This document shows positions 4,574 to 29,451 of a DNA stretch of 64,000 bases, piece after piece. The notes under the pieces were generated by a model. The model searched no databases and was not told where the DNA came from. It saw only the letters and a list, made by a program, of their open reading frames with translations. Source of the DNA: Plantactinospora sp. BC1. Its GTDB lineage: Bacteria > Actinomycetota > Actinomycetes > Mycobacteriales > Micromonosporaceae. Position numbers and translations under genes: made by a program. The stretch is taken from assembly GCF_003030345.1 (NCBI RefSeq), contig NZ_CP028158.1, positions 5,332,001 to 5,396,000 on the forward strand, in the 5' to 3' direction. Position 1 is the first letter of the stretch. Every line of letters starts with the position of its first letter.

Positions 4574-5044
4574 TCAGCGTGCGCTGCGCCGGGCGGCCCG
4601 ACGCTGCTGCTTGATGGTGGTACGGACCTCGCGCTCCTGTTCGGCGTGCCGCCGGGCCGAGGCGGCCTTGCGCACGCCGTACCCGAAGGCAGCCACCTTG
4701 ACCAGCGGATTCGCCGCCGCCGCCGAGACCACCGTGCTCAGGTTGGCGATGTTCGCGGTGACGTTCTGGGCGTGACCGGTCATCGTGTCGATCTTGGCGA
4801 GCTGGATGTTCACCCCGTCCAGCGAGGTGTGCACCTGCCCGAGCGCGGTGTTCACGTTCTCCACCGTGACGTTCATGTTGGCGAGCAGCGGCGCCGTGCG
4901 GTCATTGATGTCGTTGATCGCCTGGGTCGCCGCGTCCACCGTGTTGCCCAGCCGCCAGATCGGCCTGGCCAGCACCAACACCAGCATCAGGAACGCCCCG
5001 GCAGCGACGAGCGCAGCGATCTGGCCGATCTCTCCAGCGTCCAC
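4574..5044 (-). CDS. DUF948 domain membrane protein
   Basis: The protein has 156 residues. An N-terminal membrane helix (residues ~8-27, AALVAAGAFLMLVLVLARPI) is followed by a long helical, coiled-coil-like region rich in hydrophobic heptads (about 35-115, including TAPLLANMNVTVENVNTAL). The tail is basic and ends in QQRRAARRSAR. This is the arrangement of DUF948 proteins (YtxG-like), found next to alaS in many actinobacteria. The family is sometimes linked to general stress, but the biochemical role is unknown. It lies 42 bp upstream of the DUF6167 gene in the same direction, suggesting one operon with alaS. Confidence 0.8.
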   Translation of the reverse strand: MDAGEIGQIAALVAAGAFLMLVLVLARPIWRLGNTVDAATQAINDINDRTAPLLANMNVTVENVNTALGQVHTSLDGVNIQLAKIDTMTGHAQNVTANIANLSTVVSAAAANPLVKVAAFGYGVRKAASARRHAEQEREVRTTIKQQRRAARRSAR

Positions 5045-25633: not shown

Positions 25634-26489
25634 CCGACCCGACCACGAAACCGGCATCCGCCGACAACCCGACGGCGGAATGCCGCAGCAACACACCGAC
25701 GGTGGAATGCCGCTGGAACACACCGACAACGGGATCCCGCAGCAACACACCGACGGTGGAATGCCGCACCGGCACGACGATGATGTGGTTCCGCACCGGC
25801 ACCCGGACCCGGACGTCGACCCCCATCCCCCACTGGGGCGGTCGACGCGGAGCGGAGCGGTCCGGGTCGGCATCGGCGGCCCGGTCGGCTCGGGCAAGAC
25901 GGCCCTGGTCGCGGCGCTCTGCCGCACCCTCGCCGACGAACTGCGGCTGGCCGTGGTCACCAACGACATCTACACCACCGAGGATGCCGACTTCCTGCTC
26001 CGCAACGGCGTACTGCCGGCCGAGCGGATCCGGGCGGTGGAGACCGGCTGCTGCCCGCACACCGCGATCCGGGACGACATCTCGGCCAACCTCGACGCGG
26101 TGGAGGAACTGGAGGTACTGCTCGGGCCGCTGGACCTGATCCTGGTGGAGAGCGGTGGGGACAACCTCACCGCCACCTTCAGCCGGGGGCTGGTGGACCG
26201 GCAGATCTTCGTGGTCGACGTGGCCGGCGGGGACAAGGTGCCCCGCAAGGGCGGCCCGGGGGTGACCGGCGCGGACCTGCTGGTGGTGAACAAGACCGAC
26301 CTCGCCCCGCTGGTCGGCGCCGACCTGTCGGTGATGGCCCGGGACGCGTCCGCCCGGCGCGGCCCGCTGCCGACCGTCTTCCTCTCCCTGGTGGAGGATC
26401 CGGCCGCCACCCCCGTCGCCGACTGGATCCGCACCCTGCTGCCGGCACCGGCGGTGCCGGTGGACGACCGCCCGGGACACCCGGGCTGA
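25623..26489 (+). CDS. ureG: Urease accessory GTPase UreG with expanded His-rich N-terminus
   Basis: UreG is the GTPase that powers nickel insertion. Residues ~80-288 are the canonical domain: P-loop [30 protein letters not shown], the nickel-binding [13 protein letters not shown] (CPH motif), [11 protein letters not shown], and the NKTD base-recognition motif. The N-terminal ~75 residues hold five 9-residue repeats (DGGMPQQHT type) and end in [22 protein letters not shown] propose TTG 25623 because GGGAGG lies eight bases upstream and the resulting start MHPD resembles the MH(L/P)D start of actinobacterial UreG; an ATG inside the first repeat is an alternative. No ureE is present, so the His tract may supply nickel storage. 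Confidence 0.93.
25671..25805 (+). repeat. Five 27-bp tandem repeats encoding 9-residue His-containing units of UreG
   Basis: Units start at 25671, 25698, 25725, 25752 and 25779 and encode [36 protein letters not shown] and DDVVPHRHP. The last two have extra histidines. All are in frame with ureG and lie upstream of its P-loop. Confidence 0.92.
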
Positions 26490-27376
26490 TGCGGGCACTG
26501 GCCCGGATCGTCGCCGAGGCCGACCCGCCGCGCGGAACCCGGCTGACCGTGCTGCGCGGCGAACCGCCACTGCTGCCGCGCCGGACCGGACCGGTCGGCC
26601 CGGCGGACCCGGACCGCGAGGTCGAACTGCACCTCGTCGGCGGGGCGGCCGGACCGCTCGGCGGCGACCGGCTGCGGATCGAGATCGAGGTCGGGCCGGG
26701 GGCGCGACTCTGCGTACGGAGTGTCGCCGCCTCGCTGGCGCTGCCGGCGCGGGACGGTGCCGAGTCCCGGCTCGCCGTACGGGCCCGGGTGGCGGCCGGT
26801 GGACGACTGCGCTGGCTGCCCGAACCGCTGATCGGGGCGGCCGGCTGTGCGCACCGGACCGACTCCCGGGTCGAACTCGCCGAGGGTGCGGCGCTGTACT
26901 GGCGGGAGGAACTGGTCTGCGGCCGGCACGCCGAGCCGGTCGGCGACGTACGGCTGGAGATGACGGCGCGGTACGGCGGCCGTACGCTGCTCCGCAACGA
27001 TCTCGCGGTCGGACCCGGCGCGGCCGGCTGGTCGGGCCCGGCGGTGCTCGGCGGCGGCCGGGCGGTCGGCTCGGTGCTGCTGGTCGACCCGGCCTGGACC
27101 GAAACTCCGCCACCCCGGCCGGCCCCCGACGACCGGCTGGTGCCACCCGGTCCCGGCGCACCGACCCGGGTCGGGCCGTCCGGGGCGGTGCCGTCGGGGG
27201 TGGCGGCGGCGGTGCTGCCGCTGGCCGGCGGCCCGGCCGTGCTGGTCAGTGCGGTCGGCGCGGACGCGCGGGCGGTCCGGGCCCGACTCGACCGGGCGCT
27301 CGACTGGCCAGCCGGCGCGGTCGAAGCGGGCGGCAGAGCGGCATATCGACACGTACCCGGGCATGCTGTCACGTAG
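26489..27376 (+). CDS. ureD: Urease accessory protein UreD (UreH)
   Basis: UreD is the scaffold that binds apo-urease and hands over nickel with UreF and UreG. This 295-residue protein has the UreD-type beta-rich sequence: LRGEPPLLPRRTG, GGAAGPLGGDRLRIEIEVGPGARLCVRSVAASLALP, and LRWLPEPLIGAAGCAHRTDSRVEL. The last two correspond to the conserved GDxLxLxVxVxxGAxLxVxTxAA and LxWLPEPxI blocks. The ATG overlaps the ureG stop by one base (TGATG). Its TAG stop lies in the loop of a 13-bp hairpin whose 3' arm contains the next gene's ATG. Confidence 0.93.
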   Translation: MRALARIVAEADPPRGTRLTVLRGEPPLLPRRTGPVGPADPDREVELHLVGGAAGPLGGDRLRIEIEVGPGARLCVRSVAASLALPARDGAESRLAVRARVAAGGRLRWLPEPLIGAAGCAHRTDSRVELAEGAALYWREELVCGRHAEPVGDVRLEMTARYGGRTLLRNDLAVGPGAAGWSGPAVLGGGRAVGSVLLVDPAWTETPPPRPAPDDRLVPPGPGAPTRVGPSGAVPSGVAAAVLPLAGGPAVLVSAVGADARAVRARLDRALDWPAGAVEAGGRAAYRHVPGHAVT

Positions 27377-27390
27377 TGTGACGGCATGCC
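27360..27390 (+). promoter_or_regulatory. Hairpin joining the ureD stop and the DUF998 start
   Basis: The arms at 27360-27372 and 27378-27390 pair over 13 bp (one G-T pair), leaving a GTAGT loop. The loop holds the ureD stop codon TAG (27374-27376), and the 3' arm contains the ATG (27386) of the downstream gene. In RNA this would bury the downstream start until a ribosome finishing ureD opens it; in DNA it could be an operator. The downstream gene has no Shine-Dalgarno of its own. Confidence 0.6.
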
Positions 27391-28108
27391 TGCGGTGCCC
27401 TGGTGGGCGGTTTTCTCGGCGGCGGCCCTGCCGGTGCTGCTGGTGATCGGATGGACCGTCGCGGCCGTACGGCAACCGCCCGGCTACGACCCCTGGGGTG
27501 ACACGGTCAGTTCACTCTCCTCCTACGGGATGCTGGACCGGCAGATCCTGATCGGCTGCCTGGCCGGGCTCGGGGTGGCCCACCTGGTCACCGCGATCGG
27601 CCTGCGCCCGGTCCGCACCGCCGCCCGGCTGGTGTACGGCCTCGGCGGGGTGGCCACGGTCCTGGTGGCGGCGGTGCCGAAGACCGACGCCCAGACTCCC
27701 CGGGCGCACGGCGTCTCCGCGGTGGTCGCCTTCGTGGCCCTGGCCGCCTGGCCGGTGGTGGCCGCCCTGCCGCTACTGCGCCCCGCTCGGACCCGGCGCC
27801 GGCAGCTCGGGCCCCGACACGACCGGCCGGGCGAGCCCGGTCACCCCCCGGCGGACCGGACGGCAACCTGGGCGGCGGACCGGACGGCGGACCGGCCATG
27901 GGTACTGCGTCCGGCGGTCGGCACCGCCGTCTCGCTGGTGATGCTCGGCCTCGGCCTGTGGCTGGCGCTGCAACTGCCCGACGGCGGTTGGGCGGGGCTG
28001 GCCGAACGGCTGACCGCCGGCACGGAGGCGCTCTGGCCGCTGATCGTGGTGCTGACCCTGTTCCGTCGGACCCGTCGGCGACCGGCGACGGCACGCCGAT
28101 CGGCGTGA
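27386..28108 (+). CDS. DUF998 family membrane protein
   Basis: The protein has 240 residues with about six membrane helices. It contains the DUF998 hallmark DTVSSLSSYGMLDRQ near residue 38 after TM1, then helices LIGCLAGLGVAHLVTAIGL, LVYGLGGVATVLVAAVP, and VSAVVAFVALAAWPVVAALPLL. A hydrophilic loop rich in Arg/Asp (~130-170) interrupts the last pair. The function of DUF998 proteins is not known. The ATG is 10 bp past the ureD stop, has no Shine-Dalgarno and sits in a hairpin, suggesting translational coupling to the urease operon. A strong hairpin overlaps its stop. Confidence 0.8.
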   Translation: MPAVPWWAVFSAAALPVLLVIGWTVAAVRQPPGYDPWGDTVSSLSSYGMLDRQILIGCLAGLGVAHLVTAIGLRPVRTAARLVYGLGGVATVLVAAVPKTDAQTPRAHGVSAVVAFVALAAWPVVAALPLLRPARTRRRQLGPRHDRPGEPGHPPADRTATWAADRTADRPWVLRPAVGTAVSLVMLGLGLWLALQLPDGGWAGLAERLTAGTEALWPLIVVLTLFRRTRRRPATARRSA

Positions 28109-28167
28109 TCGGGAGGGTGGGTGCCGGCCGTTCGCCGACACCCACCGCAGATCCCGATCACGCCGAT
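28099..28167 (+). terminator. Long hairpin terminator overlapping the DUF998 stop
   Basis: The arms ATCGGCGTGATCGGGA (28099-28114) and TCCCGATCACGCCGAT (28152-28167) are perfectly complementary over 16 bp. An inner pair GGTGGGTG/CACCCACC (28116-28123 with 28139-28146) extends the stem. The TGA stop lies within the 5' arm. The hairpin separates convergent genes and could work in both directions. Confidence 0.8.
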
Positions 28168-28196
28168 GGATCACCGGCCCGAATCAGTCCGGTGGA

Positions 28197-29237
28197 TCAG
28201 TAGACCTGTACGCCGTACGCGTTGAGCGCCTCGACGACCGGCTGGAAGTACGTCGTGCCGCCGGTGCTGCAGTTGCCGCTGCCGCCCGAGGTCAGGCCGA
28301 GCGCCGTGTTGCCGGCGAAGAGCGGGCCGCCGCTGTCGCCCGGCTGGGCGCAGACGGTGGTCCGGATCAGGCCGGAGACGGTGCCGCTGCCCTGGTAGGT
28401 GACGGTCGCGTTGAGCGCGGTCACCCGGCCGCTGCGCAGCCCGGTGGTGCTGCCGCTGCGCTGCACCGACTGGTTGACGGTCGGGTTGGCCGCACCGGTG
28501 ATGTCCCGGCTGCCGCTGTACAGCCAGACGTCACCCGGCTGCTGCGCGGTGCTGTTGTACCGCACGATCCCGTAGTCGTTGCCGGGGAAGCTGCTGCCGG
28601 CCCGGGTGCCGATCACGGAGCCGCCGGAGCTGCTCGACCAGTTCGCCCCGGCGTTGGTGCAGTGGCCGGCGGTGAGGAAGTAGTAGGTGCTGCCGCTGCG
28701 GACGTTGAAGCCGAGCGAGCACCGGCTGCCGCTGGTGTAGATCGCCTGGCCGCCGGAGATGGTGGTGCTCAGCGTGCCGGGGATCGACTGGATCCGGACG
28801 GCACCGCCGAAGCGCGCCGTGACCGACTTGATCTTGGCGAGCTTGGCACCGGTGACCGTGCTGTCCACGTCGACCGCAACCTGGTTGCTGACCGGGTCGA
28901 CGTACCACGCGGTGCCCGGGATCCGGGCCGACCTGTCCAACTCGGCGGTGACCTGGGCCAGTTCGGCCGCACCGCGGGTGACGACCTTGGCGGTCGCCCC
29001 GGAGGCCCGGACCTGGCGGGCCGCCGCCTCGTCGGTCACGGTGACGACCATCTTGCCGTCGGCGCCGAGGTAGGTGCCGGCGGACCGGGCGCCGAGCCGC
29101 TCGGAGAGCGCCGTCGCGGCCTCCGGGCTGGCGACCGGGGCAGCCTGCGCCGGTACGCCGATCAGCATGCCGGCGACGAGTGAGCCCGCCGCGGACGCGA
29201 TCGCGACAAGGCGGATCGATGACCTTGTGGGTCGCAT
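28197..29237 (-). CDS. Secreted S1-family serine protease (alpha-lytic/streptogrisin type)
   Basis: This is a 346-residue preproprotein. A Sec signal peptide (residues ~1-32, ending VPAQAAP) is followed by a prodomain (~33-165) and the chymotrypsin-like domain. The catalytic triad is visible: His in [11 protein letters not shown], Asp in [11 protein letters not shown] and Ser in [12 protein letters not shown]. Cysteines in [19 protein letters not shown] and GNCSTGG are placed for disulfides as in streptogrisins. ATG 29237 has GGGAGG upstream; the longer reading from 29285 lacks sense as a signal peptide. A CCTCCaa...TTGGGAGG hairpin in the leader could mask that Shine-Dalgarno. It is likely an extracellular nutritional protease. 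Confidence 0.93.
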
Positions 29238-29451
29238 GTAGAGCCTCCCAAGGGGGGTTTGGAGGTGTCTGCGCCGAGTTGGCACATGTGATACGAGTAT
29301 TCAGACATCTAAGATCATGAACAAGATGCCTAACATATCGCCTGCAACAGGGCGTTCGCCTTATGGTCAGCTCCGTTGTGGAGACTCAGGCCGCTCTATA
29401 TGATTCGCCCACCCCCAGCTGGCTCAGGCAACCGCGATCCGGAGGCCGCCC

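Follow-up and report, generated by a model that had tools for sequence, protein, structure and literature searches.

Genes and features at the locus

The window, that is, the whole 64-kb stretch of DNA that was analysed, hosts a ureD gene followed on the same strand by a gene of the DUF998 family, with 9 nt separating the ureD stop from the DUF998 ATG (Table 1). The product of the latter is probably a membrane protein. The accessible parts of the papers on this family describe a Frag1-like six-helix fold (PMC10584675) and list DUF998 among the hits of a metagenomic esterase screen (PMC6302743), and within that coverage neither of them links DUF998 to urea.

Table 1. Positions of genes and regulatory features at the ureD-DUF998 junction
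Feature	Positions in the window	Strand	Basis
ureD, 295 aa	26489..27376	+	Pfam UreD, E 2e-28
DUF998 gene, 240 aa	27386..28108	+	Pfam PF06197, 74.2 bits (cut-off 30), E 1.4e-20
Reported hairpin, GGCATGCTGTCAC-GTAGT-GTGACGGCATGCC	27360..27390	+	Sequence, repeat search
Inner palindrome GTCAC-GTAGT-GTGAC, 15 bp, operator-like	27368..27382	+	Conservation; fits BldD box TNAC-N5-GTNA
Putative -10 hexamer TAGTGT (TANNNT), which begins with the ureD stop codon	27374..27379	+	Position relative to ATG, relatives
DUF998 start codon, predicted transcription start of a leaderless mRNA	27386..27388	+	-10 spacing

Downstream, at 28197-29285 and convergent with DUF998, a trypsin-like protease is encoded that has an alpha-lytic-protease prodomain (Pfam). 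A similar protease sequence was recognized by eye beside DUF998 in loci L002, L006, L007 and L026, where the gene order looks conserved. Positions 28099-28167, where DUF998 ends and ahead of this convergent serine-protease gene, hold a perfect 16-bp inverted repeat, with the two copies 37 nt apart and a 13-nt repeat nested inside, which is possibly a two-way terminator. A search of 26400-28600 returned no known RNA family, the only match (28100-28166, E 0.2) being far below threshold.

The locus was compared across seven genomes of the same genus, most likely Plantactinospora, including that of the window's strain (G000, 8.33 Mb). Among them are P. mayteni (G058), P. endophytica (G092), P. alkalitolerans (G104) and Micromonospora sp. 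HM5-17 (G078). DUF998 has a match in all seven and in 40 of the 121 genomes of the family that were searched, own genome included. We fetched the 30 best DUF998 loci, from 30 of the 40 matching genomes (ten matching genomes were left out); seven of these loci are in the genus and 23 outside it.

A hairpin covers the ureD stop and the DUF998 start

The hairpin is composed of two 13-nt arms (27360-27372 and 27378-27390, 92% complementary in the repeat search) and the 5-nt loop GTAGT, and can be divided into an inner palindrome and the outer arms GGCATGCT and GGCATGCC. The TAG of ureD (27374-27376) lies in the loop and the ATG of DUF998 in the 3' arm. An initial annotation of this DNA had described a 13-bp stem with a GTAGT loop spanning the two codons; the stem is present, with 12 Watson-Crick pairs and a single T-G pair, which is a wobble in RNA. 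The same annotation had stated that DUF998 is not preceded by a Shine-Dalgarno sequence, and we could see no such run by eye in the 18 nt 5' of the ATG.

As RNA, the 31-mer of the window's strain folds with -23.6 kcal/mol (z -5.0), and none of 200 shuffles equalled this value. Stems of 13 bp (G-T allowed, loop of 3-8) gave 21 raw hits in the window; in five controls generated by a first-order Markov model the raw hits numbered 1, 3, 7, 3 and 9. Since these hits correspond to 10 distinct places, including the hairpin itself, the stem alone is not unique.

The inner palindrome is conserved in front of DUF998

The inner 15 bp, GTCAC[GA]TANNGTGAC, occupy positions -18 to -4 relative to the DUF998 ATG in six of the seven same-genus genomes, and are lost in Micromonospora sp. 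HM5-17. When the ATG is included in the pattern, GTCACNTANNGTGACNNCATG matches the 8.33-Mb genome of the window's strain exactly once, and its reversed control not at all. It occurs once per genome in the six carriers, always at DUF998, and its reversed control occurs in none. The 15-mers of the six carriers are 80-100% identical in all 15 pairs, and identity across the preceding region (-60 to -19) is 21-36% in 12 of the 15 pairs and 64-93% in the other three. Over positions -60 to -1, only 13 columns are invariant in four divergent lineages (-18 to -14, -12, -11, -8 to -4 and -1), and they correspond to both arms of the palindrome, the first two bases (TA) of the -10 box, and position -1. 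By exact pattern, the palindrome is absent from the 23 fetched loci outside the genus. The exact motif GTCAC-N5-GTGAC was found at 12 places, each viewed with 40 nt of flank, and the reversed control at one.

An imperfect direct repeat (GGCATATCGACACGTA and GGCATGCTGTCACGTA, 20 nt apart, 75%) extends over 27340-27375. The block TATCGAC..GTACCCGGGCAT, which includes the upstream copy of the repeat, is also present in P. mayteni, where it is non-coding, and in G032. This repeat is possibly a second protein site.

The palindrome encloses the -10 box of a predicted leaderless promoter

The first T of TAGTGT lies 12 nt 5' of the DUF998 ATG, with six bases between the hexamer and the start codon. 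We looked for TANNNT placed 5-7 nt 5' of an in-frame start codon near the DUF998 match, and found it in 19 of the 30 fetched loci, including all seven in the genus. The distance was exactly 6 nt in all 19 loci, which are not independent events because the 30 loci are homologous. Each of 31 control hexamers, also with three fixed A or T positions, was found in 0-3 of the 30 loci. The exact pattern TANNNT-N5-7-start is missing in the remaining 11.

Read directly, the sequence 5' of the ATG is GTCACGTAGTGTGACGGC, with no Shine-Dalgarno. No -35 element of the nTGACn type known from Actinoplanes, which belongs to the same family as the window's strain, was seen by eye at the expected distance from the DUF998 start. 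In the Actinoplanes study, nTGACn is the -35 consensus and leaderless transcription starts account for 14.03% of CDS (PMC7682106). According to two further studies, a TANNNT-type hexamer precedes the start codon of leaderless genes by about 12 bp (PMC3160421) and Mycobacterium tuberculosis has no conserved -35 element (PMC3898074); the spacing that these studies give for leaderless genes agrees with that of DUF998. The DUF998 element thus resembles actinobacterial leaderless promoters in hexamer, spacing and missing Shine-Dalgarno. It differs from them because it lies inside a genus-conserved 15-bp palindrome and because, in one strain, the hexamer is also the stop codon of the upstream gene. 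We searched the genome for further promoters built in the same way (TNACNTANNGTNANNNNRTG), and found this site only, with zero matches of the reversed control.

From these sequence data we consider it highly probable that the palindrome element serves as the promoter, and probably also as the operator, of DUF998, and that it gives rise to a leaderless mRNA. RNA polymerase would recognise the -10 box TAGTGT (27374-27379) and start transcription at the A of the ATG, or within 1-2 bases of it, and the resulting mRNA would be translated without a Shine-Dalgarno sequence. The inverted repeat of 15 bp in which the -10 box is set would be the site of a dimeric DNA-binding protein, which would most simply act as a repressor blocking polymerase. 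The initial annotation had mentioned a DNA operator as its alternative, and this is the reading that fits the data best. The inner palindrome is kept in six of seven genomes regardless of ureD. The role of the TAG as part of a -10 box had gone unseen there.

A strong stem 3' of a stop codon could also be an intrinsic terminator after ureD. In this case, however, the stem is not followed by a T run, its loop coincides with the predicted -10 box and its 3' arm covers the start of the next gene, so that termination here is hardly credible.

Outer arms and distance to ureD vary among relatives

The initial annotation had favoured a different mechanism, in which the stem hides the DUF998 start on the ureD mRNA until a ribosome ending at the TAG in the loop opens it, and had suggested from this a role of DUF998 in urea or ammonia handling. 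Several features of the window's strain are in line with such coupling: the stem of -23.6 kcal/mol lies exactly over stop and start, the gap is of 9 nt, and there is no Shine-Dalgarno. A model of coupling through RNA unfolding is described in a review (PMC12548453), and the two systems are alike in that stop and start lie within one stem in the window's strain. They are unlike in that here neither the position of the stop nor the outer arm is conserved.

Folding of the relatives gave a divided picture. The whole stem is present in the window's strain and in P. mayteni, and has one mismatch in G032. A continuous outer stem is absent from the other four of the seven genomes (P. endophytica, P. 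alkalitolerans, G113 and Micromonospora sp. HM5-17), with the inner stem extended to 7 bp in P. alkalitolerans. A continuous stem over the start codon is therefore seen in only three of seven folds, which argues against coupling. On the other side, the 31-mers of four genomes fold clearly better than shuffles (z -5.0 in the window's strain, -7.0 in P. mayteni, -4.8 in G032 and -3.5 in P. alkalitolerans); those of P. endophytica, G113 and Micromonospora sp. HM5-17 are not clearly better.

Covariation of the arms, which the initial annotation had proposed as a check, speaks both ways. The covariation score, obtained by counting pairs, was equalled in only two of 500 shuffles, with 78% of cells paired, but it is inflated by the relatedness of the sequences and by the structure being taken from one row. 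Two-sided changes occur in five cells and four pairs, in P. endophytica, P. alkalitolerans and Micromonospora sp. HM5-17; outer pairs 1, 2 and 6 are broken in four of seven genomes. A DNA palindrome bound by a dimer would give the same covariation. Moreover, ATGCC in the 3' outer arm is coding sequence and does not vary among the seven genomes, so that this arm may be kept for that reason alone.

The position of ureD varies as well. The ureD stop precedes DUF998 by 9 nt in the window's strain, 173 nt in P. mayteni, 200 nt in P. endophytica and 677 nt in G113; the end of the ureD match lies about 3.5 kb 5' of DUF998 in G032 and about 9.3 kb in P. alkalitolerans. No UreD match was found in the Micromonospora sp. 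HM5-17 genome (96% complete), which has DUF998. In P. mayteni the whole hairpin is kept with the ureD stop 173 nt upstream, and in G032 and P. alkalitolerans the inner palindrome is kept with ureD kilobases away. The window's strain is the only one of the six carriers of the inner palindrome to have the ureD stop in the loop, and in the other five an upstream stop near the hairpin is not kept. Conservation of the palindrome is independent of the distance to ureD.

ureD is followed by DUF998 on one strand, within a 1.5-kb flank, in seven of the 30 fetched loci (the flank of L018 reaches only 685 nt), including three of one other genus (L009, L028 and L030) with about 450-550 nt between the genes. 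This local synteny is in line with coupling, but it does not show shared function. In L030, the interval 945-1494 between ureD and DUF998 holds what resembles a gene for a small multidrug-resistance-type transporter.

Finally, the conserved leaderless promoter would yield an mRNA without the 5' arm of the stem. Relatives include DUF998 genes away from ureD and, in four of seven genomes, outer arms that form no continuous stem, the two outcomes that the initial annotation itself had set against its proposal. Ribosome-driven opening of the stem is very improbable as the mechanism that controls DUF998. A conserved coupling of urease and DUF998 was rejected on the basis of the varying distances and of the genome without a UreD match, and with it the proposed tie to urea or ammonia handling is not borne out.

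Origin of the stop codon in the loop

The comparison of the window's strain with P. mayteni suggests how the ureD stop may have come to lie in the loop. In the alignment, the end of ureD is followed by about 110 nt that are missing in the window's strain, and then by nearly identical promoter DNA. Residues 274-295 of the window's UreD match positions 4923-4988 of the P. mayteni locus (L059) with 77%, and the P. mayteni ureD stops earlier, at 4825-4827. The C-terminal tail of ureD in the window's strain hence corresponds to DNA that does not code for protein in P. mayteni. The window's strain has apparently lost about 110 nt; this deletion would have removed the old stop and fused the end of ureD to the DUF998 promoter, so that the TAG of TAGTGT now ends the ureD frame. 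A deletion is the simplest account of the stop in the loop, the direction of the change being presumed.

The two ureD genes differ also in length, 340 aa in P. mayteni and 295 aa in the window. The former contains about 60 additional residues of repetitive sequence (L059:4510-4722), inserted between the positions that match residues 235 and 245 of the window's UreD.

Candidate binding proteins

The inner palindrome is likely an operator, with protein binding predicted from its sequence and conservation. Among known regulators, the best-matching candidate that we found is BldD, which with c-di-GMP would repress DUF998 during vegetative growth. The sequence TCACGTAGTGTGA fits the consensus TNAC-N5-GTNA, as given in PMC4151990, in six of seven genomes, and a BldD orthologue is present in all seven (69-70% identity to a BldD query sequence). 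A precedent is Streptomyces sspA, which is reported to be transcribed from the start codon itself, with the box and the -10 region protected by BldD (PMC4282423). sspA and DUF998 are alike in the transcription start at the start codon and in a TNAC-N5-GTNA-like box at the -10 region, both start and binding being predicted for DUF998. They are unlike in that sspA is SigF-dependent and encodes a spore protein, and in that a search at two control genes gave no exact box here. However, the consensus has only six fixed bases, with about 0.04 chance hits per 400 nt of shuffled upstream DNA. In addition, no exact box was found in the 320 nt before bldD in any of the seven genomes, where only TCACGCTCCGTAG, a 5-of-6 match by eye, is present in all seven, nor in the 400 nt before bldC in any of the seven. 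These target controls comprise two genes only, bldD and bldC. As they lack the exact box, we hold the operator likely and BldD a lead only, one that is possible and that we would sooner expect to fail than to hold.

The half-sites GTCAC and GTGAC also resemble the GTnAC of GlnR, which would link DUF998 to the control of nitrogen and urease; ureA is a GlnR target in Streptomyces (PMC10704036). The boxes given there, however, are mostly 5-bp sites separated by n6 and arranged head to tail, whereas here an inverted repeat with n5 is kept in six of seven genomes. A GlnR box (GTnAC-n6-GTnAC or GaAAC, head to tail) was therefore rejected on spacing and orientation, and we give hardly any credence to control by GlnR.

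The operator and the RNA fold might also act together. In this case, the DNA operator would repress the promoter, the fold would keep DUF998 silent on ureD read-through RNA, with only the leaderless mRNA being productive, and the capture of the -10 box as stop codon would add ribosome gating in this strain alone. Such a dual role appears quite unlikely.

Conclusions

The DUF998 element is probably a leaderless promoter of an ordinary type, whose conserved palindrome is likely to bind a protein. As the locus illustrates, a conspicuous hairpin that spans a stop and a start codon can turn out to be a disguised promoter, and a -10 box whose first letters are TAG can be taken over as a stop codon where a deletion has moved a gene up to it. 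The lead towards urease is weakened, and the DUF998 protein of unknown function gains a testable, conserved regulatory site.
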